64,000 bases of DNA from Solwaraspora sp. WMMA2065 (GTDB taxonomy: Bacteria > Actinomycetota > Actinomycetes > Mycobacteriales > Micromonosporaceae), in NCBI RefSeq assembly GCF_030345075.1, contig NZ_CP128361.1, forward strand, positions 4,216,001 through 4,280,000. Reading direction: 5' to 3'. The translations under genes were made by a program, and so were the position numbers. The notes below the pieces were generated by a model that worked only from the letters and a program-made list of their open reading frames with translations, had not been told where the DNA came from and made no database searches. Below, piece by piece: positions 6,915 to 38,388 of this stretch; the stretch's first letter is position 1; the number at the start of each line of letters is the position of its first letter.

Positions 6915-8408
6915 CTACGGCGGCGGATAGAACATGCCCTGCGCGGTCACCGACGGACTGGCCGCCGACTCGTTGCCGGCGGCGTCGACGGCGACCACCG
7001 TGTACGTGTGCCAGGTCCCCCCGCCCACCGGCAGCGTCAGCTGGGTCCCGTCGGTCGCGCCGACGACGGTCGCTCCCTCGTACACCCGGTAGCTGACGGC
7101 GGGCTCGCCTCCGACGGAGGCAGACCACACCAGGGTGAGCCGAGCGTCGGTGGGCCAGTTGCCGGGGGTGTTGCCGGTCACCTCGAGCGACGCCGGTGCC
7201 GCCGGCCGGGCGGCGGGACCGGGTGCGGTGGTGACCCGCGCCGGGGCGGAGCGTGGGGTCTCGCCGCAGGGCTGAGGGAGGGTCGCGCTGACCCGGTAGA
7301 CGTGCCGGGACGCCGACGGCAGCCCGGAGACGACCGTCTCCGGGTAGCGGGAGGTGGCGACAGCCGTGTCACCGTCCCAGACGGTGTACGAGGTGGCGGT
7401 CGCGTCGAAGGTCCAGCTCAGCCGCACCGACGACGGGGAGAGCGCGGTCGCCGCCAGCCCGACCGGCCGGGGCGGGCTGCCCAGGCAGGTCTCGGTGCTG
7501 GCTGACACCGCCGGGCTGTGCGCCGACTCGTTGCCGGCGGAATCGAGCGCGGCGACGGTGAAGCGGTGCCAGGTGGCGTGGAAGAGCCGCTGGACGGTGG
7601 CCGTGGTGCCGACGCTGACGGCGACCCGGGTGCCACCCTCGTAGACCGCGTACCGGTCCGGCGGCGGTCCGGCCGGCGCGGTCCAGGCCAGGCTGATGGT
7701 GGTGTCGGTTCGCCCGGTGACGGTGAGGTCGGTAGGCGGGGCGTGCCGCGCGGGCTCGCCGGCGGCGGTCGTGGCGCTGGTCGAGCCGACCAGTTCGGTG
7801 AATCCGGGGCTGCATTGGTTGAGCCGGAAGAGCTGGATCTGGTGATCGGTGGCAGGTGCCAGACCGCCGACCCGGGCGCTGGTCAGCGACGTCCAGCCCA
7901 GGCTGACGCCGTCCACCCGCAGTTCCAGTTCGCCGCCGAGCGGGTGCCGGGGCCAGGAGAGCGAGACCGCCGACGCGGTGACGGCGGTGACGGTGATCGG
8001 CAGGGTCGGGGTCGGCAGACACTCCGGGTTGACCCCGGAGAGCCAGGAGCGGCCGGTCACCGGGTCGGTCGGCGCCGACTCCCGCCCGTGCCGGTCGACG
8101 GCGGTGACGGTGTACACGTGTGACGAGCCGAAGGGCACGTTCATCGTCGCCGACGTGGTGCTGGTGCGGGCGACCACTTCTCCGCCCTCGTACACCCGGA
8201 AGGAGTGGACCCGTGGCCCGGTGGGCGGTTGCTGCCAGGTCAGGCTGATCGCGACGCCGTTGGTGCTGGCCCACAGCGCGGTCGGGGTCGTCGGGCCGGC
8301 CGGTCCGCCGTACCGCGCGGCGGCGGGGGATGCGCCGAGCAGGATGACGGCGATGAGTGCGGCGATGGTCAGCGCGGCGGCGCCGCGCCAGTGGGATGGG
8401 GTACGCAC
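6915..8408 (-). CDS. Secreted protein with five fibronectin type III domains
   Basis: A 497-aa protein with a Sec signal peptide (basic start, hydrophobic ALTIAALIAVILLGASPAAA). About five ~90-residue FN3 repeats follow. Each has the S-x-x-L-x-W strand (e.g. VSLSWPRHP, ISLAWTAPAG, VRLSWTFDA) and the Y-x-V-x-A-x-D motif (VYTVTAVDRHGRES, FTVAALDSAGNES, YTVVAVDAAGNES). No catalytic domain is present, and the protein ends just after the last repeat with FYPPP. FN3 arrays usually act as extracellular spacers or carbohydrate or surface binders. It is divergent from the PTM operon with 660 bp between. Confidence 0.85.
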   Translation of the reverse strand: MRTPSHWRGAAALTIAALIAVILLGASPAAARYGGPAGPTTPTALWASTNGVAISLTWQQPPTGPRVHSFRVYEGGEVVARTSTTSATMNVPFGSSHVYTVTAVDRHGRESAPTDPVTGRSWLSGVNPECLPTPTLPITVTAVTASAVSLSWPRHPLGGELELRVDGVSLGWTSLTSARVGGLAPATDHQIQLFRLNQCSPGFTELVGSTSATTAAGEPARHAPPTDLTVTGRTDTTISLAWTAPAGPPPDRYAVYEGGTRVAVSVGTTATVQRLFHATWHRFTVAALDSAGNESAHSPAVSASTETCLGSPPRPVGLAATALSPSSVRLSWTFDATATSYTVWDGDTAVATSRYPETVVSGLPSASRHVYRVSATLPQPCGETPRSAPARVTTAPGPAARPAAPASLEVTGNTPGNWPTDARLTLVWSASVGGEPAVSYRVYEGATVVGATDGTQLTLPVGGGTWHTYTVVAVDAAGNESAASPSVTAQGMFYPPP

Positions 8409-9069
8409 GGCTGTCCCTCCGTTGACACCAACCAGTTATCGATTCCGATCGATCACATCTAGGGAACCGGTGCGTCGACGCCATGTCAAGCGCAGGCCGA
8501 CCACACCCGCGGGCATCGCTGCGCCCATCGCCGCCAATCTCACCCGTACCCCGCAGACCGACCAGGTGCCGCGCGGTGAGCGACGGTCCTGCGAGAGGTT
8601 GAGACGATGCCGCACTCCACCCTGAACTAAACAGCTAAGTAGACAGAGGGTCCGGTCCATCAAAAAGACCCTTATGTCATGACAAAAATGAACCAGTTCT
8701 TGTTTGAGTTGCCGGCTTGAGATATTCAGATGGTGATAGAGAACTACCGATCATGACTTCTATTTGGATTACTGACTGGGGACCGGCAACACAGCGCAAA
8801 AGATGATCTGGCACCACCCAGACGTGAACCGGTTCTCACAAAGAAGTTCACGCATGATCGACACCCGATGGACCGCAGCAAGATTCAGGCCCATGCCAAG
8901 GGATCGCGCACTTCGTTGATCAAGGCGCATTTTTGGTAAAGGCCAGAGCACCCCGCAAGGCTAGCTGTTTCATCTGTTGGAAAGTGCGCCTCCACCGCAC
9001 GCCCTGTGTTCAACGCGATTGGCCGCCCCTTCGGCGGTGATCGACAGAACGACCTGCGATGGAGAGAAC
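8409..9069. other. Long intergenic region upstream of the PTM operon
   Basis: This 660-bp region between the FN3 gene and the hydroxylase gene is clearly less GC-rich than its surroundings, especially 8640-8960. I see no credible gene. It contains short palindromes, the clearest being TGTCATGACA (8675-8684) and GAACCGGTTC (8826-8835). It probably carries the promoter of the PTM operon and its control sites. I cannot place -35/-10 boxes with confidence. Confidence 0.6.
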
Positions 9070-9996
9070 GTGAACATCTACCACCAGTACGACAGCGCCC
9101 TGTCCCCGCCTGCACCAGAGCCCTGCTCCATCGCCATGGTTCGCGCCGCCGCACGGATCGCGACATATCCGATCCTGGTCGTCGCCATGATCGCGGTCAG
9201 CGTGATCGCGCTGCGGCACGGGTGGAACCTGGGTGCCGCCAACTTCGCCTTTCTGATCGGTACGCTCGCCTATCTTGCAATGTTTGAGCGTCTGATCCCG
9301 TACGAGCCCAACTGGCACCCGAGCCTACGTGAGTGGCGCTGGTACGGGATCTACTTCCTGCTTACCCTGCTCGGCGGCGGGCTGGCACAGCTGCCGATCA
9401 TGGCTGTCGTCGGGGCGGTCGCCGCACCCCAGGGGTGGCTGCCGCTGTGGGTGGAGATGCCGTTCGCGCTGCTGCTCGGTTCGCTGGCCAGCTATGTGAT
9501 GCACCGACTCGGGCACACCAACGCCTGGCTGTGGCGACTCCACGGAGTGCACCACGCGCCGGACAAGGTCAATGTCGGCAACAACGGCGTCAACCACATC
9601 TTCGACATCGTGCTCGCCCAGGGTGTGGTGCAGTTGACGCTCGCCTTCGCCGGTTTCTCCGAGCCGGCCGTCTTCGTCATCGGCCTGTTCGTCATCGTGC
9701 AGGGCTACTTCATCCACGCCAACATCGACGTACGCATCGGTTGGCTGAACTATGTCTTCACCAGTCCGGAGCAGCACCGTCTACATCACAGCACGGACCT
9801 CGCCGAGGCGGGAAATTTCGGCTCCGATCTGTCGATCTGGGATCAGCTCTTCGGCACCTTCACATGGCGTTCGGGTCGCCGCCCGGTAGCGATCGGGCTG
9901 CACAATCCGACATCGTTCCCACCGACCGGCGACGTCGTTGCCAGCCTGTTGCACCCGTGGCGCGCCCGCGCCGGTGCCAGTGGACCACGCCGCTGA
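9070..9996 (+). CDS. ftdA: Sterol desaturase/fatty acid hydroxylase-family PTM hydroxylase (FtdA-like)
   Basis: A 308-aa integral-membrane di-iron enzyme. Several hydrophobic segments frame the histidine clusters of the fatty-acid-hydroxylase superfamily: HRLGH (145-149), HGVHH (158-162) and HRLHH (236-240), with a further His in YFIHANID. I start at GTG 9070, directly after GGAGAGAAC, rather than at an upstream ATG lacking a ribosome site. It is first in the operon, 53 bp before the synthase. In frontalamide and HSAF clusters this protein hydroxylates the ornithine-derived part of the tetramate scaffold. The same role is inferred here and predicts a hydroxylated product. Confidence 0.87.
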   Translation: MNIYHQYDSALSPPAPEPCSIAMVRAAARIATYPILVVAMIAVSVIALRHGWNLGAANFAFLIGTLAYLAMFERLIPYEPNWHPSLREWRWYGIYFLLTLLGGGLAQLPIMAVVGAVAAPQGWLPLWVEMPFALLLGSLASYVMHRLGHTNAWLWRLHGVHHAPDKVNVGNNGVNHIFDIVLAQGVVQLTLAFAGFSEPAVFVIGLFVIVQGYFIHANIDVRIGWLNYVFTSPEQHRLHHSTDLAEAGNFGSDLSIWDQLFGTFTWRSGRRPVAIGLHNPTSFPPTGDVVASLLHPWRARAGASGPRR

Positions 9997-10049
9997 CAAC
10001 CGCGCGCGCACCTCCGCTCGTCCGTACCGCGACTCAGAAGGACTTGACA

Positions 10050-13000
10050 ATGACGTATTCCCGCGCGGCCGGGGCGCAAGAGAAGAACCCGGCGAATGCC
10101 GGCGGATCGGAAAAGATCGCCATCATCGGCATCGGCTGCCGTATGCCCGGTGGCGCCTCGGACTACCGGACGTTCTGGCAGAACGTCGTCAACGGTCAGG
10201 ATTGCATTACCGAAACGCCCTCGGACCGCTACGACGTCGCCACCCTCGCCAGCCAGGACAGGACCAAACCGGGGCGGTTGGTCGGTGGCCGGGGCGGCTA
10301 CATCGACGGAGTGGCCGAATTCGACCCGGCCTTCTTCGGCATCAGCCCTCGGGAGGCCGAACACATGGATCCGCAGCAGCGCAAGCTGCTGGAGGTCAGC
10401 TGGGATGCACTGGAGGACGGCGGACAGAAGCCGACGGAGCTGGCCGGACGGGACGTCGGGGTGTTCATCGGCGCGTTCACCTTGGACTACAAGATCCTGC
10501 AGTTCGCGGACCTGAGCTTCGAGACCCTGGCGGCGCACACGGCGACCGGAACCATGATGACGATGGTGTCGAACCGCATCTCGTACTGCTTCGACTTCCG
10601 CGGCCCCAGCGTGTCGATCGACACCGCGTGTAGTTCCTCCCTGGTAGCCGTACACCTGGCCCGGCAGAGCCTGTTGCGCGGGGAGATCGACCTTGCGCTC
10701 GCCGGCGGGACACTGCTGCACCTGACCCCGCAGTACACCATCGCCGAGACGAAGGGCGGCTTCCTGTCCGCCGATGGCCGCTCGCGCCCCTTCGACGCGT
10801 CGGCCAACGGGTACGTCCGTGCCGAGGGCGTCGGGGCGGTCGCGCTGAAACGCCTGTCGGACGCGCTGGCGGACGGTGATCCGATCCACGCGGTGATCAT
10901 CGGCAGTGGCGTCAACCAGGACGGCCGGACCAATGGCATCACCGTGCCGAACGCCGACGCTCAGGCCACCCTCATCCAGCGGGTGTGCGCCGAGGCCGGG
11001 ATCGCCCCGGGCAGCCTGCAGTACGTAGAGGCGCACGGCACCTCCACCCCGGTCGGTGACCCCATCGAGGCCAAGGCGCTGGGCCGGGTGCTGGCGATCG
11101 GCCGCCGGCCCGGGGAAACCTGCTACATCGGGTCGGTGAAGACGAACATCGGGCACACCGAGGCCGCCGCCGGCGTCGCCGGCCTGATCAAGACCGCGAT
11201 GTCCGTGAAGCACCGCACCATCGCCCCGCAGATCAACTTCGATCAGGTCAACCCCGAGATCGACCTGACGTCCCTGCCGTTCGAGATCCCTACCGCGCCC
11301 ACGCCGTGGCCGCAGCACCAGGGGCCGGCCCGCGCCGGGGTCAACTCCTTCGGCTTCGGCGGCACCAATGCGCATGTGCTGCTGGAGGAGCCACCGCAAC
11401 GGTCGGACGCGGTCACGCCCTCAGCCGGCCCACCGGCGTACACGATCCTTCCCCTGACCGCCCGCGACCCCGACGTGCTGCCGGCTCTCGCCGAGGGCAT
11501 CCGCACGGAGTTGGCCGGGGCCGACGGACACGATGCCGTCACGCCGGCCGATCTCGGCTACACGCTGGCCCGCCGCCGCCAGCATCACGAACACCGTCTG
11601 TCGATTGTGTACTCGAATCAGGCTCCGGCGCACACGAACCGGGCCTCGCTGGACACGGCACTGGCCGCCTATCTGCGCGGCGATCCGCATCCGCACGTGT
11701 TCGTCGACCAGCGGCGTGACACGCACGAGCGCGCGTTGGTGTGGGTGTTCACCGGGATGGGGCCGCAGTGGTGGGCGATGGGTCGCCAACTGTACGCCGA
11801 CGAGCCGGTGTACCGGGACGCGATCGACCGCTGCGACCGGGCGATCCGGCGGATCACCGGCTGGTCGTTGATCAACGAGCTGAACGCAGACGAGGTCGAC
11901 TCGCGCATGGCCGAGACCTGGCTCGCGCAGCCGGCCAACTTCGCGGTCCAGGTCGGCCTGTCAGCTCTGTGGCGCAGCTACGGCGTACGGCCCGACGCGA
12001 TCGTCGGACACAGCACCGGTGAGGTGGCGGCCTTCTACGAGGCCGGCGTCTACTCCCTCGAAGAGGCGGTCAGGATCGTCGTACACCGCAGTCGACTGCA
12101 GCAGAAGCTCGTCGGGACCGGCACCATGCTCGCGGTCGGGCTCACCGAAGCCGAGGCCGAACGCCGGATCCGACCGTACGGCGAACGGATCTCCGTGGCC
12201 GCGGTCAACAGCCCTGCAGCGGTGACCCTCGCCGGTGACGAGACCGCCCTCGCCGACCTCGCCGCCGACCTCACCGCGGAACAGACCTTCGCCAAGCTCG
12301 TCGCCGTACGCGTGCCGTACCACAGCGCAGCCATGGACATGATCAAGGACGAGCTGCTCGCCTCACTGCACGGCCTCGCCCCGCGCCCCGCCCGGGTGCC
12401 CGTCTACCTCACCGGACAGGACGGCGTGGCGCAGGGCCCCGAACTCGACGCCGGCTACTGGTGGCGCAACGTCCGCGACAGCGTACGGTTCCGTGGCGCG
12501 GTAGATCGGCTCATCGACGACGGGTACCGCCTCTTTCTCGAGATCGGCCCGCATCCGGTGCTCGGCCACTCCATTCAGGAATGCCTCGCCAGCAGGGATG
12601 CGCCGGGCCGTACCCTGCCGTCGATCCGGCGGGGGGAAGACGAACCGCAGCGCATGGTCATGACCCTCGCCGCCCTGCACAACCTCGGTGTGGAGATCGC
12701 CTGGGACGTCCTGCACCCGGACGGGGCGCCGGTGCCGCTCCCCCGGTACCCGTTCCGCCGCGACCGCTACTGGGTGGAGCCGCGATCGGTCGCGCAGGTC
12801 CGGCTCGGACAGCGGGACCACCCGCTGCTCGGCCGGCGGTTGTCCAACGCCGAGCCCACCTGGGAGGTGAAGCTCGACACCGAGGACATGCCGTACCTGG
12901 ACGACCACCGGATCCAGGGAAACGCCGTGTTCCCGGCCGCCGGCTACCTCGAAATGGTGGCGCAGGCGGTCAACGCGCTCACCGACGGCGGCACGGCGAC

Positions 13001-16000
13001 CCTGGCCGGCATCGAACTGCGCAAGGCCCTGTTCCTGTCCGCCGGTGAGTCCCGGACCGTACAGCTGTCGGTGACCGCCGAATCCGGCGAATTCACCGTG
13101 GCTTCGATCACCGGCGACACCGCCGACCACCTTGTGCACGCCAGCGGGATCCTGCTCGCCGGCCAACCCGGCCGGCGCGTTCCCCGGTTGGCCGCCGATG
13201 CGGTACGGCAGCGCCTGGCGCACCACCTCGACGGCGTGCGGTGCTACGCGGACCTCGCCGCCCTCGGCTACCACTACGGCCCGGCCTTCCAGGGCATCGA
13301 ACAGGTGTGGATCGGCCCGGACGAGGCACTGGCCCGGATCCGGCTGCCGGCCGTACTCGACGGCTCCGCCGGCGGCTACCACGTCCACCCGGTGCTGCTC
13401 GACGCCTGCTTCCAGACCCTGCTGACCCCGCAGCTGCTCGACGCCGCAGGCCCGGACGAGGAACACACCGGCATCCGGCTGCCGTTGTCGATCGCGGAGG
13501 TACGCCTCGACCAGGTCGGCGATCAGGCGCTGTGGGCGCACGCGACGATCGTGCGGCGCGACGCCGACGGATTGTTCGGCGACATCGCGGTCTACGCCGA
13601 CGACGGCACCCCGGTAGGCCGCATCGAGGGCTTCCGCGCCTCAGACGTGGAAGGGACCACCGCCGCTGTCGGTGTCGGCACGATCGACAGCTGGCTCGCC
13701 GAACTCCAGTGGGTCCAGCGGGAGCCCCTGACCGACCCTGAGGCGCAACCCTCGGTTGCCGATCGGGCCGGTGACCGGTGGCTGGTCTTCGCCGATCGCG
13801 ACGGCCTGGCCGAGGAGCTGGCCGATCTGGTCGCGGGCCGCGGCGGTCACTGCCACCTGGTACGGCCCGGACCTGGCTACCATCTCGGCCGCGACGGTGC
13901 GGGCTCGACGGTGCGACCGGGCCGCACCGACGAACTGCACCGCCTCCTCACCGATCTGCGCGCGGCCAACGTCGGACCGTTCCACAACGTGGTGCACCTG
14001 TGGGGCCTGGACCTGCCGCCGCTTGACCGCACCGCCATCGACGACTTCGCCGAGCACACCAGTCTCGGCGTCTATTCCCTGGTCGCGCTCGCCCAGGCCC
14101 TGCTCGCCCAGGGAACCGACGGTCGGCTGCACGTCGTCGCCAGAGGCACCCAGGCGGTGCAGGCAGCGGATCCGGTGGCGCCGATGGGCGCGCCCGCCTG
14201 GGGCGTCTGCCGGGTGCTACGCCACCAGGAGTTGCTCAACCACCCGGGCAAGCTGATCGACCTCGACCCGGCCGGCGGCCGGGACCGGGCCGCCCGGCGG
14301 GCGGAGGCGGCGGCCCTGCTACGGGAGCTGGCCGTCGACGACGAGGACGAGATCGCCCTGCGCGGCGACCGCCGGTACACCAGCCGGCTACGGCCGGCCG
14401 ACGAGCTGACCCGCCCGCTGCCGCTGCGCCTACGCGCCGACGGCGCCTACCTGGTGACCGGGGCGTTCGGCGCACTGGGCCGGCTACTGTGCCGCACCCT
14501 CGTACGCCGGGGTGCCCGCCGGCTCATCCTCGTCGGGCGCAGCCCGGTTCCGCCCCGGCAGCGGTGGGGCGAGCCTGGCTGGGACGGCGCGGTCCGCGAC
14601 CGGATCGGCTTCCTGATGGAGCTGGAGACGCTCGGCTGCCAACCGATCCTGGCCCGGCTCGACGTCACCGACGAAGCCGCGCTGGCCGGCTGGCTGGCCG
14701 GTCACCGCGCCAGTCAGGCACCGCCGATCCGCGGCGTGTTCCACCTCGCCGGCCAGGTCCGCGACACGCTGCTCCCCGAGATGGACCGGGCGGCGTTCGA
14801 CACCGCGTACGCGCCGAAGGTGCTCGGCGCCTACCTGCTGCACCGTCACCTGAACGACGAACCGCTGGAGCACTTCGTGCTGTTCGCCTCGATCGCCTCG
14901 CTGCTCACCACCGCCGGGCAGAGCAACTACGCGGCCGGCAACGCCTTCCTGGACGCGCTGGCGCAGCATCGTCGCGCCACCGGGCTGCCGGCGCTGAGCC
15001 TGGACTGGGGGCCGTGGGCCACCGGAATGATCGAGGAACTCGGCCTGGTCCACCACTACCGGCACAGCCGCGGCATGAGCTCGCTGTCGCCGGCTGCCGG
15101 CATGGCGGTGCTCGAACGGGTGATCGGGCAGGACCGGGCGCAGCTGCTGGTGGCCACCATCGTGGACTGGCCGACCTTCCTTTCCTGGTACACCTCCGAA
15201 CCGCCGCTGGTGGCCGACCTCGCGGCGACGGCGGCGCAGCCGCCGGACGCGGGCGGCGACAGCTTCCTGGACGTGTTCCGCGACGCGGACGGTGACCAGC
15301 GGCGCCAGCTGCTCGGCGAGCGGTTCATCGCGGTGGTGGCGGCCGTGCTCAGGATTCCCCCGGAACGGGTGGACCCGGCGTCCAGCGTGGCCGCGCTGGG
15401 ACTGGACTCGCTACTCGCCATGGAGCTGCGCGCCCGTATCGCGGCCGAGATCCACGTCGCCCTGCCGGTGGTGGCGCTGCTCAGCGGCGCACCGGTCGCC
15501 GACCTTGTCGAGCAGGCGCACGAGGGGCTCGTCGACCTGCTCGCCTCGGACACCGCCACCGGCGGTGCCGACGTCGAGGTGTACACCGACGAGCAGTGCT
15601 ATCCGTTGACCCAGAACCAGAAGGCACTGTGGTTCCTCAAGCAGCTCAACCCCGACGGCTACGCCTACAACATCGGCGGTGCGGTCGAAGTGCGGGTCGA
15701 ACTGGACCCGGAGCTGATGTTCGAGGCCGTTCGAGCCCTCATCGCGCGCCATCCCAGCCTGCGGGCGAACTTCCTGCTCGAACAGGGCCGGTCGGACCTG
15801 GGCCGGCGGGCCGGCCACCGCCAGCCGATGCAACGGATCCACCCGCAGGTCAGGGCGGATGTCGCCCTGTTCGACGTGCGCGACCAGGCGTGGACCGACG
15901 TCTACCAGATGATCATCCAGGAGTACCGCCGCCCGTACGACCTCGAACGCGACCCGCTGGTGCGCTTCCGGCTCTTCCGGCTCAGCCCACAGCGATGGGT

Positions 16001-19000
16001 CATCATGAAGGCCGTCCACCACATCATCTCGGACGCCATCTCCACCTTCACCTTCATCGAAGAACTACTCGCCGTCTACGAAGGGCTGCGCCGGGGCGAA
16101 CCCGCGCAGCTACCGCCGGCGTCCGCCCGCTACCTGGACTTCCTCAACTGGCAGAACAGGTTTCTCGGCAGCCCGCAGGCGCGCAGATCGCTGGATTACT
16201 GGCGTTCGCACCTACCCGCCGAGGTGCCGATCCTGAACCTGCCGACCGACAGGCCACGTCCGGCGGTGCAGACCAACAACGGAGCTTCGGAGTTCTTCAC
16301 GCTGGATCCGGACCTCACCGCACGGGTGCACGCGACGGCCCGCGACCACAACGCGACCGTGTTCATGGTGCTGCTGTGCGCCTACTTTGTTCTGCTGCAC
16401 CGCTACTCCGGGCAGGACGACGTCATCGTGGGCAGCCCGGTGACCGGGCGTACCGAGGAGGAGTTCGCCTCGACCTACGGATACTTCGTCAACCCGCTGC
16501 CGCTACACGCTGACCTGTCCGGCGATCCGTCGATCGCCGACCTGCTGAACCAGGTACGCACGACGGTGCTCAACGGGCTGGACAACCAGGACTACCCGTT
16601 CGTGCTGTTGGTGGAACAGCTGGGCCTGCAACACGATCCCAGCCGGTCGGCGGTCTTCCAGACGATGTTCATCCTGCTCACCCACAAGGTGGCGACGGAG
16701 AAGTACGGCTACCGGCTGGAATACATCGAACTTCCGGAGGAGGAAGGACAGTTCGACCTGACCCTGTCGGTCTACGAGGACGAGGCCGACCACCAGTTCC
16801 ACTGCGTGCTCAAGTACAACACCGACCTTTTCCTGCCCGAGACCGTACGGCGGATCGCACGGCACTACGTCCAGCTGCTCGACACGATGAGCCGGTCGGC
16901 GCCCGAGCAGCCGGTCCGCCAGCTGGAACTGCTCGGCGCGGACGAACGCGAACGTCTCCTCGACGACTGGAGTGGCGCACGGCAGCAGGTCGCGCACGAC
17001 GTCCCGGTCCACGAGCTGATGGCCAGGGTCGCCGCGCAGCGGCCGGACGCCGTCGCCGTCGTGGCGCCGGCAGGTCCCAGCGGCGCGGCGGGCGGATCCG
17101 CCGACACCCGCCGGCTGGACTACGCCACCCTGGAACGGCGGTCGCGGCAACTCGCGCACCAGCTGCGCCGTCTCGGCGTACGGGACGGCGCGGTGGTCGC
17201 CCTCTGCCTGGACAAGTCTCCCGAGCTGATCACCGCGGTGCTCGCGGTGCTCCGGGCCGGCGGTGCCTATCTGCCGCTCGACGCCGGCTACCCGGCTGAA
17301 CGGCTGGCGTACATGCTGCGCAACGCCGGGGCCACCCTGGTGCTCGCCGACGGCGCGGCCCGCGCCGGCATCAACGGCATGCTCGGGGTTTCCGGCCGGG
17401 TGCTGGACCTGCACTCGCTGCTGCAGGCGGCCGGGGACGAGCCCGACGCCGCCCTCGACGTGCACGTCGGCCTGGACGAACCGGCCTACGTCATATACAC
17501 CTCCGGTTCGACCGGTCTACCGAAGGCCGTCCAGGTCACCCACCGCAATCTGGCTGCGGTGTACGGCGGTTGGCGACAGGAGTACCACCTCGACGAGGTG
17601 CGGGTGCACCTGCAGATGGCCAGTTTCGCGTTCGACGTGTTCGCCGGCGATCTCGTCCGCGCGCTCTGCTCCGGCGGCACCCTGGTCCTGGTCGACCGCG
17701 ATCTGTTGTTCAACACCGACCGGCTGTACCGCACGATGGTCAGCGAACGCGTCGACTGCGGCGAGTTCGTCCCCGCCGTCGCCCGCGGGCTGCTCACCTA
17801 CTGTGAACGTGAGGGACGCCGGCTGGAGTTCATGCGCCTGCTGATCGTCGGCTCCGACATCTGGACCGTCGAGGAGTACCAGCGGCTGCGCGCGCTCGGC
17901 GGCCCGCACACCCGGGTGGTCAACTCGTACGGCCTGAGCGAAGCAACCATCGACAGCACCTATTTCGAGGGCCCGCTGGACACCCTCGATCCCGGCCACG
18001 TCGTGCCGATCGGACGGCCGTTCCCGAACAGCGCCGTCTACCTGCTCGACGAGCAGGGCGGGCTGGTGCCGCCCGGCGTACCCGGCGAGTTGTGGGTCGG
18101 TGGCCACGGCGTGGCGACCGGCTATGTCGGCGACGCCGAGCAGACCGCGCAGCGCTTCGTCACCCGGACGTTGAGCCGTCTGCCGGGTGCCCTGCCGGTG
18201 CGGCTCTACCGCACCGGAGACCTCGCCCGCTGGGCGGCCGACGGCGTCCTGCACCTGTTGGGCCGGGCGGACACACAGGTCAAGGTACGCGGTCATCGAG
18301 TCGAGACCGGTGAGGTCGAGTCCCTGCTGAAGGCGTTGCCCGCCGTGGCGGAGGCGGTGGTCGTGGTCCGCCCGGACGCCAGCGGCGAAGCCGTCCTCTG
18401 CGCGTACTACGTGCCGGCCGACGGTGCGGTGCTCGACCGGCGGGAACTGCGCAGCCACCTCGCCGGCCAGCTGCCCACGTTCATGATCCCGGCGCACCTC
18501 GGCCAGCTGTCGGCGCTGCCGCTGACCCCCAACGGCAAGGTCGACGTGGCGGCGCTCCCACCGCCCGGTCCGGATCCCGAACAGGGGCGGTACCACCCGC
18601 CGGTGACGCTGTACGAGACCCGGATGGCCGAGCACTGGCGGGCGCTGCTCAACATCGACGAGATCGGACTGCGGCAGGACTTCTTCGAGGTGGGGGGAAG
18701 CTCGATCAAGCTCGTCGAGCTGATCTACAGCCTGCAGACCGAGTTCAACATAGAGATCCCGGTCAGCCGCCTCTTCCAGATCACCACCCTGCACGGCATG
18801 GCGACAACGGTGGAGCACATCGTCACCGGGCGGCTCAGCGGCGGGCAGCCGTATCTGACGTTCAACCCGGCGGACCGTCCCGCGCTGTTCTGCTTCCCAC
18901 CTGCCGGCGGGCACGGGCTGATCTACCGGCAGTTCGTCATGCATCTGCCCGAGTACCACACCGTGGGGTTCAACCACATTCCCGGCGACGACAAGGTCGT

Positions 19001-19625
19001 CCGGTATGCGGACCTGGTCGACGAGCTACAGCCGGACGGCGGCTGCCGGCTGCTCGGTTATTCGCTCGGCGGCAACCTCGCCTTCGAGGTGGCGAAGGAG
19101 CTCGAACGCCGGGGTCGGACGGTGCGACACGTGGTCATCGTCGACTCGTACCGCATCGGCGCGGAGTTCGAGTTCGGCCCGGAACAGTTCGCGGCGTTCG
19201 AGCGGGAACTCGCCGAGCACCTGCGCCGGCACACCGGTTCGGAGATCGTCGCCCAGGAGACCCGGGAACAGGCCCGCGAATACATCGAGTTCTGCGCCCG
19301 TACCCCGAACCTGGGGTCCGTCGCGGCACCGGTGACGGTGATCAGCGACCAGGACCGGATGGAGTTCTACGCGGCAGGTACGCGCGGCAGCTGGGCTGGC
19401 GCGTCACGCAGCCACGACGGCCTGCTCGCCGGGTTCGGCACCCACGCCGAGATGTTCGACCAGGAATACGCCTCCCGCAACGCCGGCCTGGTCCGTGACG
19501 TCCTGGCGGGCTCCGGTGCCGAACCCGGCACCGGTTCCGGCACCGGTTCCGGCACCGATTCCGCCGCCGGAGAACGTCCCGCGCCCGCCATGAACCCCGA
19601 CCCGTCGCTCGCCCCAGTGGACTGA
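10050..19625 (+). CDS. ikaA: Iterative hybrid PKS-NRPS of polycyclic tetramate macrolactam biosynthesis
   Basis: One 3191-aa megasynthase with order KS-AT-DH-KR-ACP-C-A-PCP-TE. KS about 22-445 (C194 in DTACSSS, H329, H369). AT about 560-860 (S655 in GHSTG). DH about 920-1200 (H953). KR about 1455-1640 (TGAFGALG from 1470, Y1627). ACP S1787. C about 1850-2280 (HHIISD 1990-1995). A about 2310-2810 (YTSGSTG from 2483). PCP S2885. TE about 2935-3150 (S3005 in GYSLGG). There is no ER or methyltransferase. The A-domain pocket reads D-V-G-E-I-G-S-I-D, the L-ornithine code. Known PTM synthases use the single PKS module iteratively to make two polyene chains, join both to ornithine, and release by Dieckmann cyclisation at the TE. 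ATG 10050 follows AGAAGGA. The last ~35 residues are a Gly/Ser/Thr repeat. Confidence 0.95.
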   Translation: MTYSRAAGAQEKNPANAGGSEKIAIIGIGCRMPGGASDYRTFWQNVVNGQDCITETPSDRYDVATLASQDRTKPGRLVGGRGGYIDGVAEFDPAFFGISPREAEHMDPQQRKLLEVSWDALEDGGQKPTELAGRDVGVFIGAFTLDYKILQFADLSFETLAAHTATGTMMTMVSNRISYCFDFRGPSVSIDTACSSSLVAVHLARQSLLRGEIDLALAGGTLLHLTPQYTIAETKGGFLSADGRSRPFDASANGYVRAEGVGAVALKRLSDALADGDPIHAVIIGSGVNQDGRTNGITVPNADAQATLIQRVCAEAGIAPGSLQYVEAHGTSTPVGDPIEAKALGRVLAIGRRPGETCYIGSVKTNIGHTEAAAGVAGLIKTAMSVKHRTIAPQINFDQVNPEIDLTSLPFEIPTAPTPWPQHQGPARAGVNSFGFGGTNAHVLLEEPPQRSDAVTPSAGPPAYTILPLTARDPDVLPALAEGIRTELAGADGHDAVTPADLGYTLARRRQHHEHRLSIVYSNQAPAHTNRASLDTALAAYLRGDPHPHVFVDQRRDTHERALVWVFTGMGPQWWAMGRQLYADEPVYRDAIDRCDRAIRRITGWSLINELNADEVDSRMAETWLAQPANFAVQVGLSALWRSYGVRPDAIVGHSTGEVAAFYEAGVYSLEEAVRIVVHRSRLQQKLVGTGTMLAVGLTEAEAERRIRPYGERISVAAVNSPAAVTLAGDETALADLAADLTAEQTFAKLVAVRVPYHSAAMDMIKDELLASLHGLAPRPARVPVYLTGQDGVAQGPELDAGYWWRNVRDSVRFRGAVDRLIDDGYRLFLEIGPHPVLGHSIQECLASRDAPGRTLPSIRRGEDEPQRMVMTLAALHNLGVEIAWDVLHPDGAPVPLPRYPFRRDRYWVEPRSVAQVRLGQRDHPLLGRRLSNAEPTWEVKLDTEDMPYLDDHRIQGNAVFPAAGYLEMVAQAVNALTDGGTATLAGIELRKALFLSAGESRTVQLSVTAESGEFTVASITGDTADHLVHASGILLAGQPGRRVPRLAADAVRQRLAHHLDGVRCYADLAALGYHYGPAFQGIEQVWIGPDEALARIRLPAVLDGSAGGYHVHPVLLDACFQTLLTPQLLDAAGPDEEHTGIRLPLSIAEVRLDQVGDQALWAHATIVRRDADGLFGDIAVYADDGTPVGRIEGFRASDVEGTTAAVGVGTIDSWLAELQWVQREPLTDPEAQPSVADRAGDRWLVFADRDGLAEELADLVAGRGGHCHLVRPGPGYHLGRDGAGSTVRPGRTDELHRLLTDLRAANVGPFHNVVHLWGLDLPPLDRTAIDDFAEHTSLGVYSLVALAQALLAQGTDGRLHVVARGTQAVQAADPVAPMGAPAWGVCRVLRHQELLNHPGKLIDLDPAGGRDRAARRAEAAALLRELAVDDEDEIALRGDRRYTSRLRPADELTRPLPLRLRADGAYLVTGAFGALGRLLCRTLVRRGARRLILVGRSPVPPRQRWGEPGWDGAVRDRIGFLMELETLGCQPILARLDVTDEAALAGWLAGHRASQAPPIRGVFHLAGQVRDTLLPEMDRAAFDTAYAPKVLGAYLLHRHLNDEPLEHFVLFASIASLLTTAGQSNYAAGNAFLDALAQHRRATGLPALSLDWGPWATGMIEELGLVHHYRHSRGMSSLSPAAGMAVLERVIGQDRAQLLVATIVDWPTFLSWYTSEPPLVADLAATAAQPPDAGGDSFLDVFRDADGDQRRQLLGERFIAVVAAVLRIPPERVDPASSVAALGLDSLLAMELRARIAAEIHVALPVVALLSGAPVADLVEQAHEGLVDLLASDTATGGADVEVYTDEQCYPLTQNQKALWFLKQLNPDGYAYNIGGAVEVRVELDPELMFEAVRALIARHPSLRANFLLEQGRSDLGRRAGHRQPMQRIHPQVRADVALFDVRDQAWTDVYQMIIQEYRRPYDLERDPLVRFRLFRLSPQRWVIMKAVHHIISDAISTFTFIEELLAVYEGLRRGEPAQLPPASARYLDFLNWQNRFLGSPQARRSLDYWRSHLPAEVPILNLPTDRPRPAVQTNNGASEFFTLDPDLTARVHATARDHNATVFMVLLCAYFVLLHRYSGQDDVIVGSPVTGRTEEEFASTYGYFVNPLPLHADLSGDPSIADLLNQVRTTVLNGLDNQDYPFVLLVEQLGLQHDPSRSAVFQTMFILLTHKVATEKYGYRLEYIELPEEEGQFDLTLSVYEDEADHQFHCVLKYNTDLFLPETVRRIARHYVQLLDTMSRSAPEQPVRQLELLGADERERLLDDWSGARQQVAHDVPVHELMARVAAQRPDAVAVVAPAGPSGAAGGSADTRRLDYATLERRSRQLAHQLRRLGVRDGAVVALCLDKSPELITAVLAVLRAGGAYLPLDAGYPAERLAYMLRNAGATLVLADGAARAGINGMLGVSGRVLDLHSLLQAAGDEPDAALDVHVGLDEPAYVIYTSGSTGLPKAVQVTHRNLAAVYGGWRQEYHLDEVRVHLQMASFAFDVFAGDLVRALCSGGTLVLVDRDLLFNTDRLYRTMVSERVDCGEFVPAVARGLLTYCEREGRRLEFMRLLIVGSDIWTVEEYQRLRALGGPHTRVVNSYGLSEATIDSTYFEGPLDTLDPGHVVPIGRPFPNSAVYLLDEQGGLVPPGVPGELWVGGHGVATGYVGDAEQTAQRFVTRTLSRLPGALPVRLYRTGDLARWAADGVLHLLGRADTQVKVRGHRVETGEVESLLKALPAVAEAVVVVRPDASGEAVLCAYYVPADGAVLDRRELRSHLAGQLPTFMIPAHLGQLSALPLTPNGKVDVAALPPPGPDPEQGRYHPPVTLYETRMAEHWRALLNIDEIGLRQDFFEVGGSSIKLVELIYSLQTEFNIEIPVSRLFQITTLHGMATTVEHIVTGRLSGGQPYLTFNPADRPALFCFPPAGGHGLIYRQFVMHLPEYHTVGFNHIPGDDKVVRYADLVDELQPDGGCRLLGYSLGGNLAFEVAKELERRGRTVRHVVIVDSYRIGAEFEFGPEQFAAFERELAEHLRRHTGSEIVAQETREQAREYIEFCARTPNLGSVAAPVTVISDQDRMEFYAAGTRGSWAGASRSHDGLLAGFGTHAEMFDQEYASRNAGLVRDVLAGSGAEPGTGSGTGSGTDSAAGERPAPAMNPDPSLAPVD

Positions 19626-19645
19626 CCATCGAGGAGGCACCGACC

Positions 19646-21376
19646 ATGCCAGAGTCGAAACCCGCCCGGGAAACGATGATCATCATCGGTGGTGGCCTAG
19701 GTGGTCTCGCCACCGGCTGCTACGCGCAGATGAACGGCTACCGCACCCACACGTTCGAGATGCACGAGTTGCCGGGCGGCTGCTGCACCGCCTGGGACCA
19801 GGGTGAGTTCACCTTCGACTGGTGCGTGAGCTGGCTGCTCGGCAGCGGGCCCGGCAACGACATGCACCAGATCTGGCTCGAACTCGGCGCGCTGCAGGGC
19901 AAGGAGATGCGCGACTTCGAGACGTTCAACATCGTCCGTGGCCGGGACGGGCGGACCGTCTACTTCTACTCCGACCCTGACCGGTTGCAGGAGCACCTGC
20001 TGTGGCACTCGCCCGCCGACGCGCGGCTCATCCGCGACTTCTGCGCCGGGATACGCACCTTCAAGAAGCTGCTCAACGCCTATCCGTTCCTCAAGCCGGT
20101 CGGCCTGATGCGGCCGTGGGAACGGTGGCGGATGCTCGCCGCCTTCCTGCCGCACTTCAACACCATCCGCAGGTCGATCACCACGCTGATGACCGACTAC
20201 TCCGCCAAATTCAAAGATCCGCTGCTGCGGGAGGCGTTCAACTTCATCCTGTACGAGCGACATGCGAGCTTTCCGGTGCTGCCCTTCTACTTTCAACTCG
20301 CGGCGCACGCCGGGCGCACCGCCGGCGTGCCGGAGGGGGGTTCGCTCGGGCTGGCCCGCTCGATCGAGCAGCGCTACCTGCGGCTCGGCGGCAAGATCAC
20401 GTACAACGCGAAGGTCGACGAGGTGCTGGTCGAGAACGACCGGGCGGTCGGGGTCCGACTCAGCGACGGACGTGAGCACCGCGCCGACATCGTCGTCGCC
20501 ACCTGCGACGGGCACACGACGGTCACCAAGCTGCTGAACGGCCGCTACCTCAACGAGACCTACCGTCGCCTGTACACCGAGACCATCGACGAGCCAGGCC
20601 AGATCTACCCCGGGTACGTCAGCGCGTTCTTCGGCCTCGACCGGCCGTATCCGGACGCAGACCCGTGCACCACTCACCTGCTGTCGCCCGAGGAGGCGAC
20701 GGACCTGGTCGGCATCGGCGAGCACCCCAGCGTCAACGTACAGTTCCGCAGCCGGCACTATCCCGAGCTCTCCCCGGCGGAGACCTCGGTCGTGTTCGTC
20801 ACCTTCTTCTCCGACACCGGCGCCTGGCGGCAGCTGGTGGCGGGACCGGAGCAGGCGAGCCGGGTCCGCAAGGGCGAACTGCTGCACACCCTGCGGGTGC
20901 GCCGTGGCCGCACCTACTACGCCGCGAAGCGACAGGTGCGCACCGCCCTGCTCGGCCTGCTGGACCAGCGTTACCCCGGGCTCGCAGACACGGTCGTGGC
21001 GCACGACATCGCGACACCGCTGACGCAGATCCGCTACACCGCCAACCATGACGGCTCGATCGCCGGCTGGCAACCGTTCGTCGACGGCGGCGAAACGATG
21101 GAAAAGGAGCTGGAAAAGCACGGCCCGGTGCTCCCCGGGCTGGCCAATTTCTACCTGGCCGGGGTCTGGACCACGATCGGCGGGCTCATCCGGGCCGCTG
21201 CCAGCGGCCGTCATGTCGTGCAGTTCATCTGCCGCGACGACGGTCGGCCCTTCACCGCCGACATCGACGACACGGCGCCGCCGCCCACGCAGGTGACGGT
21301 GCCCGTGCCGGCCACACCCTCGCTGGCCTCCCCGGCCGAGGGACACCCGTCCGTTCTCACCCGGCAAGGAGCCTGA
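19646..21376 (+). CDS. ikaB: Phytoene-desaturase-like FAD oxidoreductase (PTM cyclase)
   Basis: A 576-aa flavoprotein with the dinucleotide-binding motif IIIGGGLGGLATG (G15, G17, G20) and the usual C-terminal FAD contact region (NFYLAGVWTTIGGLIRAAASG). It belongs to the phytoene dehydrogenase/CrtI-like group always found beside PTM synthases. In ikarugamycin assembly the homologue forms the outer carbocycles of the polyene tetramate. It is preceded by GAGGAGG and lies 20 bp after the synthase. Only one such gene is present, whereas clusters for 5-5 and 5-5-6 ring systems carry two. The last ~40 residues are Pro/Ala/Thr-rich and probably disordered. Confidence 0.92.
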   Translation: MPESKPARETMIIIGGGLGGLATGCYAQMNGYRTHTFEMHELPGGCCTAWDQGEFTFDWCVSWLLGSGPGNDMHQIWLELGALQGKEMRDFETFNIVRGRDGRTVYFYSDPDRLQEHLLWHSPADARLIRDFCAGIRTFKKLLNAYPFLKPVGLMRPWERWRMLAAFLPHFNTIRRSITTLMTDYSAKFKDPLLREAFNFILYERHASFPVLPFYFQLAAHAGRTAGVPEGGSLGLARSIEQRYLRLGGKITYNAKVDEVLVENDRAVGVRLSDGREHRADIVVATCDGHTTVTKLLNGRYLNETYRRLYTETIDEPGQIYPGYVSAFFGLDRPYPDADPCTTHLLSPEEATDLVGIGEHPSVNVQFRSRHYPELSPAETSVVFVTFFSDTGAWRQLVAGPEQASRVRKGELLHTLRVRRGRTYYAAKRQVRTALLGLLDQRYPGLADTVVAHDIATPLTQIRYTANHDGSIAGWQPFVDGGETMEKELEKHGPVLPGLANFYLAGVWTTIGGLIRAAASGRHVVQFICRDDGRPFTADIDDTAPPPTQVTVPVPATPSLASPAEGHPSVLTRQGA

Positions 21377-21377
21377 C

Positions 21378-22433
21378 TTGAAGATCGCAAAGTGGGTCGT
21401 ACGCGAGCACGTCGACGGCGTCCCCGACACCGACCGGATCTACGAGAAGGTGACCGAGGAGGCACCGGTAGCGCTCGGTGACGACGAGATGCTGTTTCAG
21501 ACGCGGTACGTCTCGGTCGATCCGTACCTGCACGGGCTCGCCCTGGAAACGCCGGTCGGGCAGCACATGATCGCCGACTCGATCATGGAGGTGGTCGAGG
21601 CCGGACCGGACGCCCGCTTCCAGGTGGGAGACCTGGTCCAGGGCTATGGCGGTTGGCGTAGCCACGTCGTCGGCACCGGCGGCGAGGTGCTGTGGCAGGG
21701 GGAGACGTTCCCGATGGTCTTTCCCGCCTACCGCAAGCTGAATCCGCAGCACTACGACGACGTGCTGCCGGTGACGACGGCGCTGGGAATCATGGGAGGG
21801 CCGGGCATCACCGCGTGGGGCACGCTGACGCATTTCCTGACGGTGCGCCCTGGTGACACGCTGGTGATCAGCGGTGCCTCGGGGGCCATCGGGACGCTGG
21901 TCGGGCAGCTCGCCAAGCGGGCCGGTGCGCGGCTGGTGGGGACTACCGCGTCCGCGGAGAAGGTCCCGTTCCTCACCGAACTCGGCTTCGACGCCGTCGT
22001 CGAGTACCGACACGGTGACGAGCCGGGCCGGGTACGGGAGGCGCTGGTCAAAGCCGCCCCGGACGGCGTCGACAGATACTTCGACAATCTCGGTGGCACG
22101 GTCACCGACATGGTCTTCACGATGCTGAACGTGCACAGCCGGGTCGCGGTCTGCTGGCAGTGGGCCACCCAGGTGGGCCGCGAACAGACCGGGCTACGTC
22201 TCCTGCCGATGATCATGTACCCCCGTGCGACCATCCGGGGCATCTTCGCGCACGAGTGGTTCACCGAGGAGAACCTGTCGAAGATGCGCGACGAACTCGG
22301 CGGCATGGTCCGTCGCGGGGAACTGACCTACCAGCAGACCGTCCACCACGGATTCGACGAGATTCCGAACGCGTACCACAGCCTCTACCACAACCGGGGC
22401 GGTAACCGGGGCAAGGTCCTGGTCGCCGTGTAG
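21378..22433 (+). CDS. ikaC: NADPH-dependent MDR-family reductase (PTM inner-ring closing enzyme)
   Basis: A 351-aa medium-chain dehydrogenase/reductase of the zinc-free leukotriene/curcumin-reductase type. The N-terminal part has VSVDPYLHGL and the Rossmann motif is SGASGAIGTLVGQLAKRAGA near residues 163-182. In ikarugamycin biosynthesis the homologue closes the inner five-membered ring by hydride-triggered Michael addition. The start is TTG 21378, one base after the ikaB stop, with AAGGAG at the right distance. Translation is therefore coupled. It is the last gene of the operon. Confidence 0.9.
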   Translation: MKIAKWVVREHVDGVPDTDRIYEKVTEEAPVALGDDEMLFQTRYVSVDPYLHGLALETPVGQHMIADSIMEVVEAGPDARFQVGDLVQGYGGWRSHVVGTGGEVLWQGETFPMVFPAYRKLNPQHYDDVLPVTTALGIMGGPGITAWGTLTHFLTVRPGDTLVISGASGAIGTLVGQLAKRAGARLVGTTASAEKVPFLTELGFDAVVEYRHGDEPGRVREALVKAAPDGVDRYFDNLGGTVTDMVFTMLNVHSRVAVCWQWATQVGREQTGLRLLPMIMYPRATIRGIFAHEWFTEENLSKMRDELGGMVRRGELTYQQTVHHGFDEIPNAYHSLYHNRGGNRGKVLVAV

Positions 22434-22525
22434 CTTGCAGGGAGCCGCCAGGTGCCCTCAACCTGATCGCCGGTAGGCGTTCGTGGGGTTTCCGGGGGGC
22501 GATTCAAAATTCCATCGATGAAAAC

Positions 22526-22561
22526 GAGGCCCTGACCAGCGAACTTGCCGGTCAGGGCCTC
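22526..22561 (-). terminator. Rho-independent-type terminator of tRNA-Thr, possibly bidirectional
   Basis: Perfect 12-bp arms (22526-22537 and 22550-22561) flank a 12-nt loop. On the minus strand the hairpin is followed by a TTTT stretch. It sits 6 bp beyond the tRNA 3' end and about 90 bp after ikaC, so it may stop transcription from both sides. Confidence 0.8.
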
Positions 22562-22567
22562 TCCTGG

Positions 22568-22640
22568 AGCCGCCTGACGGAATCGAACCGTCGACCTACG
22601 CATTACGAGTGCGTCGCTCTGCCGACTGAGCTAAGGCGGC
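22568..22640 (-). tRNA. tRNA-Thr(CGT)
   Basis: A 73-nt cloverleaf reads on the minus strand. The 7-bp acceptor stem is GCCGCCT/AGGCGGC, the D-arm GCTC...GAGC, the anticodon stem ACGCA/TGCGT with loop CTCGTAA (anticodon CGT, reading ACG), and the T-arm GACGG-TTCGATT-CCGTC. CCA is not encoded. The 3' end points towards the PTM operon, the usual orientation for an island attached at a tRNA. Confidence 0.96.
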
Positions 22641-35994: not shown

Positions 35995-38388
35995 TCAGAC
36001 GCTCACCCGCTCCGATTCGGACCCGGCGCTGCCGCCACCGGCCGGACCACCGTCGACGTCCTCCCCCATCGCCATCGGCTTGCGCTTGGTGAACACCACG
36101 GCGGCCACCACGACCAGGGTCGCCAGCACCGCGATGGCGATGCGCAGCGGGTCGTTCTGGTCGGTGCCCACGCCCCACATGATCACCGCGGGGGCGATCA
36201 GCAGGGCCACCAGGTTCATCACCTTGAGCAGCGGGTTGATCGCCGGGCCGGCGGTGTCCTTGAACGGGTCGCCGACGGTGTCGCCGATGACCGTGGCGGC
36301 GTGCGCCTCGGAACCCTTGCCGCCGTGTGCGCCGTCCTCCACCAGCTTCTTGGCGTTGTCCCAGGCGCCGCCGGAGTTCGCCAGGAAGACCGCCATCAGC
36401 ACACCGGTGCCGATCGCGCCGGCCAGGTACGCGGCGAGCGCACCGGCGCCGAGGCCGAAGCCGACCGCGATCGGCGCCAGCACCGCCAGCAGACCCGGGG
36501 TGAGCAGTTCCCGCTGGGCGTCGCGGGTGCAGATGTCGACCACCTTGCCGTACTCCGGCCGTTGGGTCCGTTCCATGATGCCGGGGTTGTCGCGGAACTG
36601 GCGGCGGACCTCCAGCACGACGGCGCCGGCCGAGCGGGACACCGCGTTGATGGCCAGCCCGGAGAAGAGGAAGACCACCGCGGCACCGATGATCAGACCG
36701 ACCAGGTTGCCCGGGTTCGCGACGTTGAGCGAGTCGGCCAGGTAGCCGGGCACGTCGTCGATCCCGGCGTCGTTCAGCGCGATGCTGACCGTGTCGGTGT
36801 AGGAGCCGAACAGCGCCGTCGCGGCGAGCACGGCGGTGGCGATCGCGATGCCCTTGGTGATCGCCTTCGTGGTGTTGCCGACCGCGTCCAGCTCGGTGAG
36901 GGTACGGGCACCGGCCTCGTCGATGTCACCGGACATCTCGGCGATGCCCTGCGCGTTGTCGGAGATCGGGCCGAAGGTGTCCATCGCCACGATCACGCCG
37001 ACCGTGGTGAGCAGGCCGGTGCCGGCCAGCGCCACGGCGAACAGCGACAGGGTGATGGAGCCGCCACCAAGCAGGTACGCCCCGAACACTCCCGCGCCGA
37101 CCAGCAGCGCCGAGTAGACCGCCGACTCCAGGCCGACGCTGATGCCAGCCAGGATGACAGTCGCCGCGCCGGTCTGCGAGCTCTTGCCGATGTCCTGCAC
37201 CGGGCGGCGGTGCACCTCGGTGAAGTAGCCGGTGAGCAGCTGGATCGCGGCGGCCAGCACGATGCCGATGAACACCGCGCCGATGGCCAGACCGGCCGGG
37301 GACAGCGGCAGGTCGGCGCCCTCGTCGACGCCGAGCTGCGTACGCCAGTCGTCGCCGAGCAGCTCCGTCCAGCTGCTCTGCAGGTAGAAGAAGGCGGCGA
37401 CGGCGACCAGCACAGCGGCCAGCACAGCCGAGGTGAAGAACGCCCGGTTGATCGCCACCATGCCGTTACGGTCCGACGGACGCAGTCGGGTGATCAGTAC
37501 GCCGAACAGCGCGATCACCGCACCGATGGTGGAGACGATCAGCGGGAAGACCAGGCCTTCCTCGCCGAACGCGGCCCGGCCCAGAATCAGCGCGGCGACC
37601 AGGGTCACCGCGTACGACTCGAACAGGTCGGCGGCCATGCCGGCGCAGTCACCGACGTTGTCGCCCACGTTGTCGGCGATGGTCGCCGGGTTACGGGCGT
37701 CGTCCTCCGGGATGCCCTGCTCGACCTTGCCGACCAGGTCGGCACCGACGTCGGCGGCCTTGGTGAAGATGCCGCCGCCGACCCGCATGAACATGGCCAG
37801 CAGGGCCGCGCCGAAGCCGAAGCCCTCCAGCACGGTCGGTGCGTCGACCCGGTAGAGGACGACCACCAGGGCCGCGCCGAACAGGCCGAGGCCCACCGTG
37901 AGGAAGCCGACCACGCCGCCGGTCCGGAAGGCGATCTTCATCGCGTTCTCCCGGCCACCGGCGCCGGTGCCGGCCGCCGCGGCGACCCGCAGGTTCGCCC
38001 GGGTGGCCAGCGCCATCCCGGCGCCGCCGATGAACGCGCTGAACACCGCGCCCACCACGAAGAAGACGGATCGACCGACCTTCACCATCGTCTCGCTGCC
38101 CTGTGTCTCGTGCACAGGGAGCAGGAAGAGCAGTATGACGGCGAGTACGACGAACACGCCGAGGGTTTTGAACTGGCGGAACAGGTACGCCGACGCGCCT
38201 TCCTGCACGGCGCCGGCGATCTCCTGCATGTTCGTGGTGCCCTTACCGGTCGCCAGTACCGCCCGTACCAGGGCGGCGGCGAAACCCAGCGCCACCAGCG
38301 CGATGACCGCGGCGATGACGACGTACGTCAGGTGTGTGCCGGTAAGGGACAGCCCGCCGCCTTCGGCGGCCAAGGTGGTCCCGGACAT
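35995..38388 (-). CDS. hppA: Membrane-bound proton-translocating pyrophosphatase
   Basis: A 797-aa protein with about 16 transmembrane helices. It carries the substrate-site motif DVGADLVGKVEQGIPEDD followed by NPATIADNVGDNVGD, and GNTTKAITKG. The lysine in the latter marks the potassium-independent class. It couples hydrolysis of cytoplasmic pyrophosphate to proton export. ATG 38388 follows AGGAGG. The short Glu/Ser-rich tail is not part of the core. It lies beside bldG, as in Streptomyces. Confidence 0.96.
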   Translation of the reverse strand: MSGTTLAAEGGGLSLTGTHLTYVVIAAVIALVALGFAAALVRAVLATGKGTTNMQEIAGAVQEGASAYLFRQFKTLGVFVVLAVILLFLLPVHETQGSETMVKVGRSVFFVVGAVFSAFIGGAGMALATRANLRVAAAAGTGAGGRENAMKIAFRTGGVVGFLTVGLGLFGAALVVVLYRVDAPTVLEGFGFGAALLAMFMRVGGGIFTKAADVGADLVGKVEQGIPEDDARNPATIADNVGDNVGDCAGMAADLFESYAVTLVAALILGRAAFGEEGLVFPLIVSTIGAVIALFGVLITRLRPSDRNGMVAINRAFFTSAVLAAVLVAVAAFFYLQSSWTELLGDDWRTQLGVDEGADLPLSPAGLAIGAVFIGIVLAAAIQLLTGYFTEVHRRPVQDIGKSSQTGAATVILAGISVGLESAVYSALLVGAGVFGAYLLGGGSITLSLFAVALAGTGLLTTVGVIVAMDTFGPISDNAQGIAEMSGDIDEAGARTLTELDAVGNTTKAITKGIAIATAVLAATALFGSYTDTVSIALNDAGIDDVPGYLADSLNVANPGNLVGLIIGAAVVFLFSGLAINAVSRSAGAVVLEVRRQFRDNPGIMERTQRPEYGKVVDICTRDAQRELLTPGLLAVLAPIAVGFGLGAGALAAYLAGAIGTGVLMAVFLANSGGAWDNAKKLVEDGAHGGKGSEAHAATVIGDTVGDPFKDTAGPAINPLLKVMNLVALLIAPAVIMWGVGTDQNDPLRIAIAVLATLVVVAAVVFTKRKPMAMGEDVDGGPAGGGSAGSESERVSV

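Follow-up and report, generated by a model that had tools for sequence, protein, structure and literature searches.

The window considered here is a 64,000-nucleotide stretch of Solwaraspora sp. WMMA2065 (contig NZ_CP128361.1, positions 4,216,001 to 4,280,000), and it carries an intact, compact gene cluster for a polycyclic tetramate macrolactam (PTM), the product of which, to judge from its genes, is probably butremycin, a hydroxylated 5-6-5 ikarugamycin-type compound, or a compound differing from it in stereochemistry or regiochemistry. The operon (9070 - 22433) comprises four genes on the forward strand, with intergenic gaps of 53, 20 and 1 bp, encoding in order a hydroxylase, an iterative polyketide synthase-non-ribosomal peptide synthetase (PKS-NRPS; synthase A), a flavin adenine dinucleotide (FAD)-dependent cyclase (B) and a reductase of the medium-chain dehydrogenase/reductase (MDR) type (C). 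A sequence-only reading of the window had already delimited this hydroxylase-synthase-FAD-MDR block, and its coordinates proved to be exact, the genes intact and their arrangement operon-like as judged by Pfam matches, gaps and strand. Cyclase B was found in five of 354 Micromonosporaceae genomes (E <= 1e-100), belonging to three genera, and in all five the order is hydroxylase-A-B-C. Since this order is shared with four other members of the family, the aligned parts are free of stops and dN/dS lies between 0.10 and 0.35 over all genes and pairs of the five genomes, the block is not a product of chance. Identity to the window in the four relatives G114, G248, G084 and G067 is, respectively, 98%, 93%, 79% and 80% for B, 96%, 92%, 82% and 79% for C, 94%, 83%, 71% and 68% for the hydroxylase and 94%, 87%, 72% and 73% for the synthase.

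The synthase (3191 aa) matches Pfam models for ketoacyl-synthase, acyltransferase, dehydratase, KR, two PP-binding, condensation, AMP-binding and thioesterase domains, and it was compared in an alignment that kept 79 of 83 rows, the window synthase and 78 other PTM synthases, after the removal of four short ones. Read against the active-site motifs and A-domain code positions of such enzymes, the residues checked in the KS, AT, DH, KR, ACP, C, PCP and TE domains are all present in the window synthase, and those of the AT, DH, KR, ACP, C, PCP and TE domains are present in most of the aligned synthases, with the condensation motif HHxxxDA in 79 of 79 and the PCP serine in 73; for the KS residues the comparison is limited to between 11 and 36 rows, since the loci had been truncated at 10 kb. 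The A-domain code DVGEIGSIDK, which we take to be that for ornithine, is identical in 17 of the 79 synthases (the window and 16 others); a further 61 carry one or two substitutions, and one row is unreadable. Nothing in the alignment, the common code or the condensation motif is contrary to a place for this synthase within the PTM clade. It would be expected that one set of PKS domains builds two polyene chains, that the single NRPS module links the pair to the two L-ornithine nitrogens and that the TE releases a tetramate polyene precursor, upon which B would close the two outer rings, one perhaps via cycloaddition, and a Michael-type addition by the NADPH-dependent C would form the inner one to give the 5-6-5 core.

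The ring pattern of PTMs is thought to follow from the cyclase gene set. According to a published rule, the FAD cyclase DH1 together with the reductase gives a 5-6-5 system, DH1 with a second cyclase, DH2, gives 5-5 and all three give 5-5-6 (PMC5705629); a single FAD enzyme has likewise been tied to the 5/6 system (PMC8399814), and the outer rings have been attributed to IkaB and the inner ring to IkaC (PMC11724479). The FAD enzyme of the window matches PF01593 and, below that model's cut-off, the crtI family TIGR02734, whilst the reductase matches ADH_N_2/ADH_zinc_N. A second close FAD cyclase is absent from the genome, the next matches being 27% identical over residues 8 - 299 and 36% over 73 residues; thus, with DH1 and the reductase present and no DH2, a 5-6-5 product is expected by the published rule. 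The single FAD cyclase, the one MDR reductase and the PTM class proposed by the sequence-only reading were borne out by Pfam, active sites and trees. For comparison, 80 of 119 matching loci were kept from a scan of named genomes, 64 of them with DH2, 15 without it and one (L079) cut off. In unrooted trees of B every DH2-less sequence fell on one side (SH-aLRT 96 with 85 rows; 100/96 with 42 chosen rows), and an unrooted tree of C (44 chosen of 74) split 18 from 26 sequences with the DH2-less reductases together (99/97). Sites were counted as diagnostic where the DH2-less and the DH2-bearing references differ in their main residue and that residue reaches 85% or more within each group, which gave seven in B and seven in C, and C has the 5-6-5 state at four of its seven (54, 57, 291 and 300). 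Solved relatives of C are 9jp8 (99% identical to the protein of L048) and 9ji7 (80% to that of the Lysobacter locus L037).

A number of observations weigh against the 5-6-5 assignment. C has the state of the DH2 clusters at sites 265 and 267 and neither state at 34. B has the 5-6-5 state at only two of its seven sites (389 and 481), the DH2-cluster state at 46 and neither at 320, 321, 472 and 473. Outside the family its nearest relatives by identity are from the two-cyclase clusters L027, L028 and L036 (73 - 74%), other DH2-less B proteins being only 67 - 71% identical, and by tree path the nearest B outside the Micromonosporaceae is again that of the DH2-bearing L027. When six DH2 sequences were added as an outgroup to 37 chosen B rows, the DH2-less group received 92/61 and the rest 65/59, so that support for a sister relationship between this B and the ikarugamycin-type B is no more than moderate. 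In the synthase tree (40 chosen of 79 rows) the five Micromonosporaceae fall outside the other DH2-less synthases. The earlier claim of a 5-6-5 ring system is therefore upheld in part: gene content and the unrooted B and C splits agree with it, and the residues of B, its identity to DH2 clusters and the outgroup support make it weaker than first stated.

The residues at 321, 472 and 473 of B are S/F/P in 14 of the 15 DH2-less references (two of the 14, L094 and L096, being identical copies from one genome) and F/V/L in all 64 DH2-bearing loci. Y321/I472/A473 occurs in all five Micromonosporaceae and otherwise only in the fifteenth DH2-less reference, from Streptomyces eurythermus (L041). A predicted model of B has a mean pLDDT of 71.7, with values below 50 at 473 - 481 and 506 - 530. 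Since B carries residues of its own at sites that separate both reference groups, the ring pattern is less certain than the compound class, and the cyclase appears to constitute a third subtype. There is a minor chance that this third-subtype cyclase leads to another ring outcome (a different stereochemistry, a bicyclic stage that C completes in another way, or a novel carbocycle) that is then hydroxylated. The distinct Y/I/A signature and the mixed diagnostic sites of C point that way, but the genome has no second close cyclase, C groups with the 5-6-5-type reductases as noted, and Salinispora, of the same family, is a reported maker of ikarugamycin (PMC12838356), although its B was not in the comparison, that of Salinispora arenicola not having been met among the 354 family genomes (E <= 1e-100) or the 80 kept loci. 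In its strongest form the idea would be that Y321/I472/A473 cyclases are a third functional class, each enzyme fixing by itself a ring pattern or stereochemistry unlike those of both the S/F/P and the F/V/L enzymes, and that the operon makes a new hydroxylated PTM skeleton and not butremycin, which we regard as doubtful on present comparisons. As a prediction the cluster is sound; it is ordinary in its class and slightly unusual as a variant. Greater interest attaches to the cyclase residues: a cyclase unlike both known types at sites that track architecture is a test case for whether residues, or mere gene content, set the ring system.

By identity, the synthase, the hydroxylase and B are all closer to DH2-bearing clusters such as L027 than to the ikarugamycin type, as would be the case if this were a 5-5-6 cluster that had recently lost DH2 and was now degenerate or capable of a partial product only. 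Such a history is highly improbable: the four-gene form has been kept, with no stops in the aligned parts and the dN/dS given above, in five genomes of three genera, and B and C nest in no DH2-bearing lineage. As to the synthase, a tree in which the five Micromonosporaceae were held with the other DH2-less synthases was not rejected by the approximately unbiased test (p-AU 0.246, L041 and L039 ignored). A mosaic origin of the window's cluster was considered and dropped, the conflict between the synthase tree and the B and C trees not being significant by that test.

The assignment of the first gene to hydroxylases of the FtdA type, made by the sequence-only reading, is borne out by homology to the sterol desaturases (SDs) of PTM clusters and by conserved histidines. 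Homologues 53 - 68% identical to it were found in 36 of 48 other PTM-bearing genomes, the search having covered the 48 genomes behind 49 of the 80 loci, with 30 loci and L079 outside it. Nine histidines (145, 149, 158, 161, 162, 216, 236, 239 and 240) are invariant in all 35 aligned SDs, taken from the window, the four relatives and 30 of the 36 matching genomes, and the genome holds no second SD homologue at E <= 0.001. The gene starts with GTG at 9070, preceded by a GGAG motif that is found in the four relatives also. PtmD, an SD from a 5-5-6 cluster, converts ikarugamycin to butremycin (m/z 495.2850; PMC11724479). By homology the window hydroxylase belongs to the PTM family that carries out this conversion, and it is predicted to place one hydroxyl at C-3 of the ornithine part (elsewhere numbered C-25 or C-4). 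With this homology and the PtmD precedent, butremycin stands, as first suggested, as the best guess at the closest known product.

Ikarugamycin clusters have been described as lacking a sterol desaturase (PMC5705629), and it is in favour of the predicted hydroxylated 5-6-5 product that six clifednamide-like DH2-less loci also carry an adjoining SD. In all, an SD adjoins seven of the 15 DH2-less clusters (L041, L047, L048, L049, L054, L061 and L072), every one of which bears a cytochrome P450; the genomes of L058 (where the contig ends near B), L076, L084, L094/L096, L097 and L105 yielded no SD. In Streptomyces harbinensis (L102 / L121) an SD homologue lies on another contig than the DH2-less cluster, perhaps in a second PTM cluster. 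The combination of hydroxylase, A, B and C without P450 was thus seen in all five Micromonosporaceae and in none of the 15 DH2-less loci outside the family. Ten of those 15 loci (14 genomes) have a P450 motif within or adjoining the cluster, nine of them between A and B and L041 downstream; in L102 one lies about 5 kb past C on the opposite strand. This raises the prospect of a clifednamide-type pathway with its P450 elsewhere in the genome, leading to a further oxidised product, and the best P450 of the genome is indeed 52% identical to that of L048. However, that gene lies at 1.54 Mb and the window at 4.22 - 4.28 Mb, none of the 11 P450 matches in the genome (E <= 1e-30) falls inside the window, and neither a P450 motif nor a second cyclase was found in stretches of about 20 kb around the operon of the four relatives, so that such a pathway must be thought very improbable. 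The preferred product remains the hydroxylated ikarugamycin-type compound, and the operon is then a minimal natural hydroxylase and single-cyclase set without P450 and could plausibly be where butremycin-type compounds are encoded. In a sample of the phylum, 14 of 396 genomes gave a match (E <= 1e-60), exceeding 60% identity only in the genome itself and in G406, which has two cyclases, the other 12 being 33 - 41% identical.

The four-gene unit changes neighbours between genomes, as comparison of the flanks in G093, G114, G248, G084 and G067 makes clear. In G093, a sister species of the same genus, the site is empty: positions 8533 and 22444 of the window are about 60 bp apart there, replacing 13.9 kb, between a gene with an fn3 domain and tRNA-Thr, and the region 8534 - 9069 is missing too. 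In G114 the fn3 gene and the cluster are together and the upstream region can be aligned from 8642, but homology stops at 22453 and restarts at 22460 about 1.4 Mb away. Homology with G248 spans 9051 to 22432, the operon itself, and the right flanks of G084 and G067 have nothing in common with the window past 22423. The tRNA-Thr has the same right-hand neighbourhood in G093, G114, G105, G060 and G034, and not in the stretch of G079 compared. The site is variable in the genus, since in G105, another species, this tRNA-Thr carries an unrelated insert of about 13 kb (L154 3416 - 16505 against window 8533 - 22565), bordered by a roughly 110-bp copy that covers the 3' part of the tRNA and its terminator; the insert holds transposase-like open reading frames (ORFs) and a BTAD-type regulator. 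An integrase-borne island was considered for the window and was not borne out, no such copy of the tRNA having been found at its left junction (best local matches 13 and 20 columns). A perfect 12-bp inverted repeat (22526 - 22561), with a short stretch of T on the minus strand, looks by eye like the tRNA-Thr terminator, and a similar hairpin with a paired change is present in G093.

Table 1. Positions, within the window, of the PTM operon genes and the elements next to them.
Feature	Position	Strand	Evidence
PTM hydroxylase (SD/FtdA/PtmD type), fatty-acid-hydroxylase superfamily	9070..9996	+	PF04116 6e-29, SD homology, invariant His
Iterative PKS-NRPS synthase KS-AT-DH-KR-ACP-C-A-PCP-TE, IkaA-like	10050..19625	+	Pfam, active-site residues, A-domain code
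FAD cyclase B, phytoene-desaturase-like (DH1, IkaB-like), third subtype Y321/I472/A473	19646..21376	+	Pfam, trees, residues
Predicted NADPH-dependent MDR reductase/cyclase C (IkaC-like), predicted inner-ring closure	21378..22433	+	Pfam, tree, residues
Upstream intergenic region, presumed promoter, within variable block	8534..9069		low GC, flank comparison
tRNA-Thr(CGT), right neighbour of variable block	22565..22640	-	flank comparison

The lowest G+C content of the window (0.638) is in the bin 8001 - 10000. Pfam scans of 28 chosen ORFs and the four genes fit the earlier description of the operon as the main natural-product locus of the window. The C-terminal third of the ORF at 3700 - 6486 matches TSNR_N and SpoU_methylase, as in rRNA methylases of the thiostrepton-resistance type, and none of the 28 scanned ORFs was recognisable as a thiopeptide gene. 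The window further contains an Immune inhibitor A-like M6 metallopeptidase (55055 - 57502) and a membrane H+-translocating pyrophosphatase (35995 - 38577, minus strand).

Amongst known systems, ikaABC of Streptomyces resembles the window in the order of synthase, single FAD cyclase and single MDR reductase and in having no DH2, but ikarugamycin-type loci (L076, L084, L094, L096 and L102, from four genomes) have no adjoining hydroxylase that could be found, and their cyclase signature is S/F/P in place of Y/I/A. The clifednamide-type loci (L047, L048, L049, L054, L061 and L072), so labelled by their SD-A-P450-B-C architecture, share with the window an SD upstream of A, a single B, C and the lack of DH2, and differ in the P450 between A and B and the S/F/P cyclase; in print, the closest kinship to the clifednamide producer JV178 is stated only for Streptomyces torulosus (L058; PMC5754491), and a hydroxylated clifednamide has m/z 509.264 (PMC6113372, PMC8069389). 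The clusters for heat-stable antifungal factor (HSAF) and frontalamide, of the 5-5-6 type, have SD, synthase and reductase homologous to those of the window, but two or three FAD cyclases against its one (PMC5705629). L041, from S. eurythermus JCM 4206 (SD-A-B-C-P450), is like the window without DH2, and its B, with C46/Y321/I472/A473, groups with the Micromonosporaceae (SH-aLRT 84; 96/91 with the DH2 outgroup), but its P450 lies downstream, and in the trees its synthase and SD sit among those of two-cyclase clusters. The L041 cluster looks mosaic, with synthase and SD allied to those of the two-cyclase L028/L030 and B and C of the DH2-less kind, and a single clade of all DH2-less synthases is rejected once it is included (p-AU 1.4e-32). 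In the parts of the literature that were covered, butremycin is described either as a metabolite that was isolated or as the product of an engineered conversion, and no native gene cluster for it was found; the terms "gene cluster" and "genome" gave no matches in the available text of the paper describing it (PMC3944527), and its link to a cluster is therefore a prediction. The source of butremycin is Micromonospora sp. K310 (PMC3944527), a member of the same bacterial family as the Solwaraspora strain, and the predicted product of the window, 3-hydroxy-ikarugamycin, would be that same compound.

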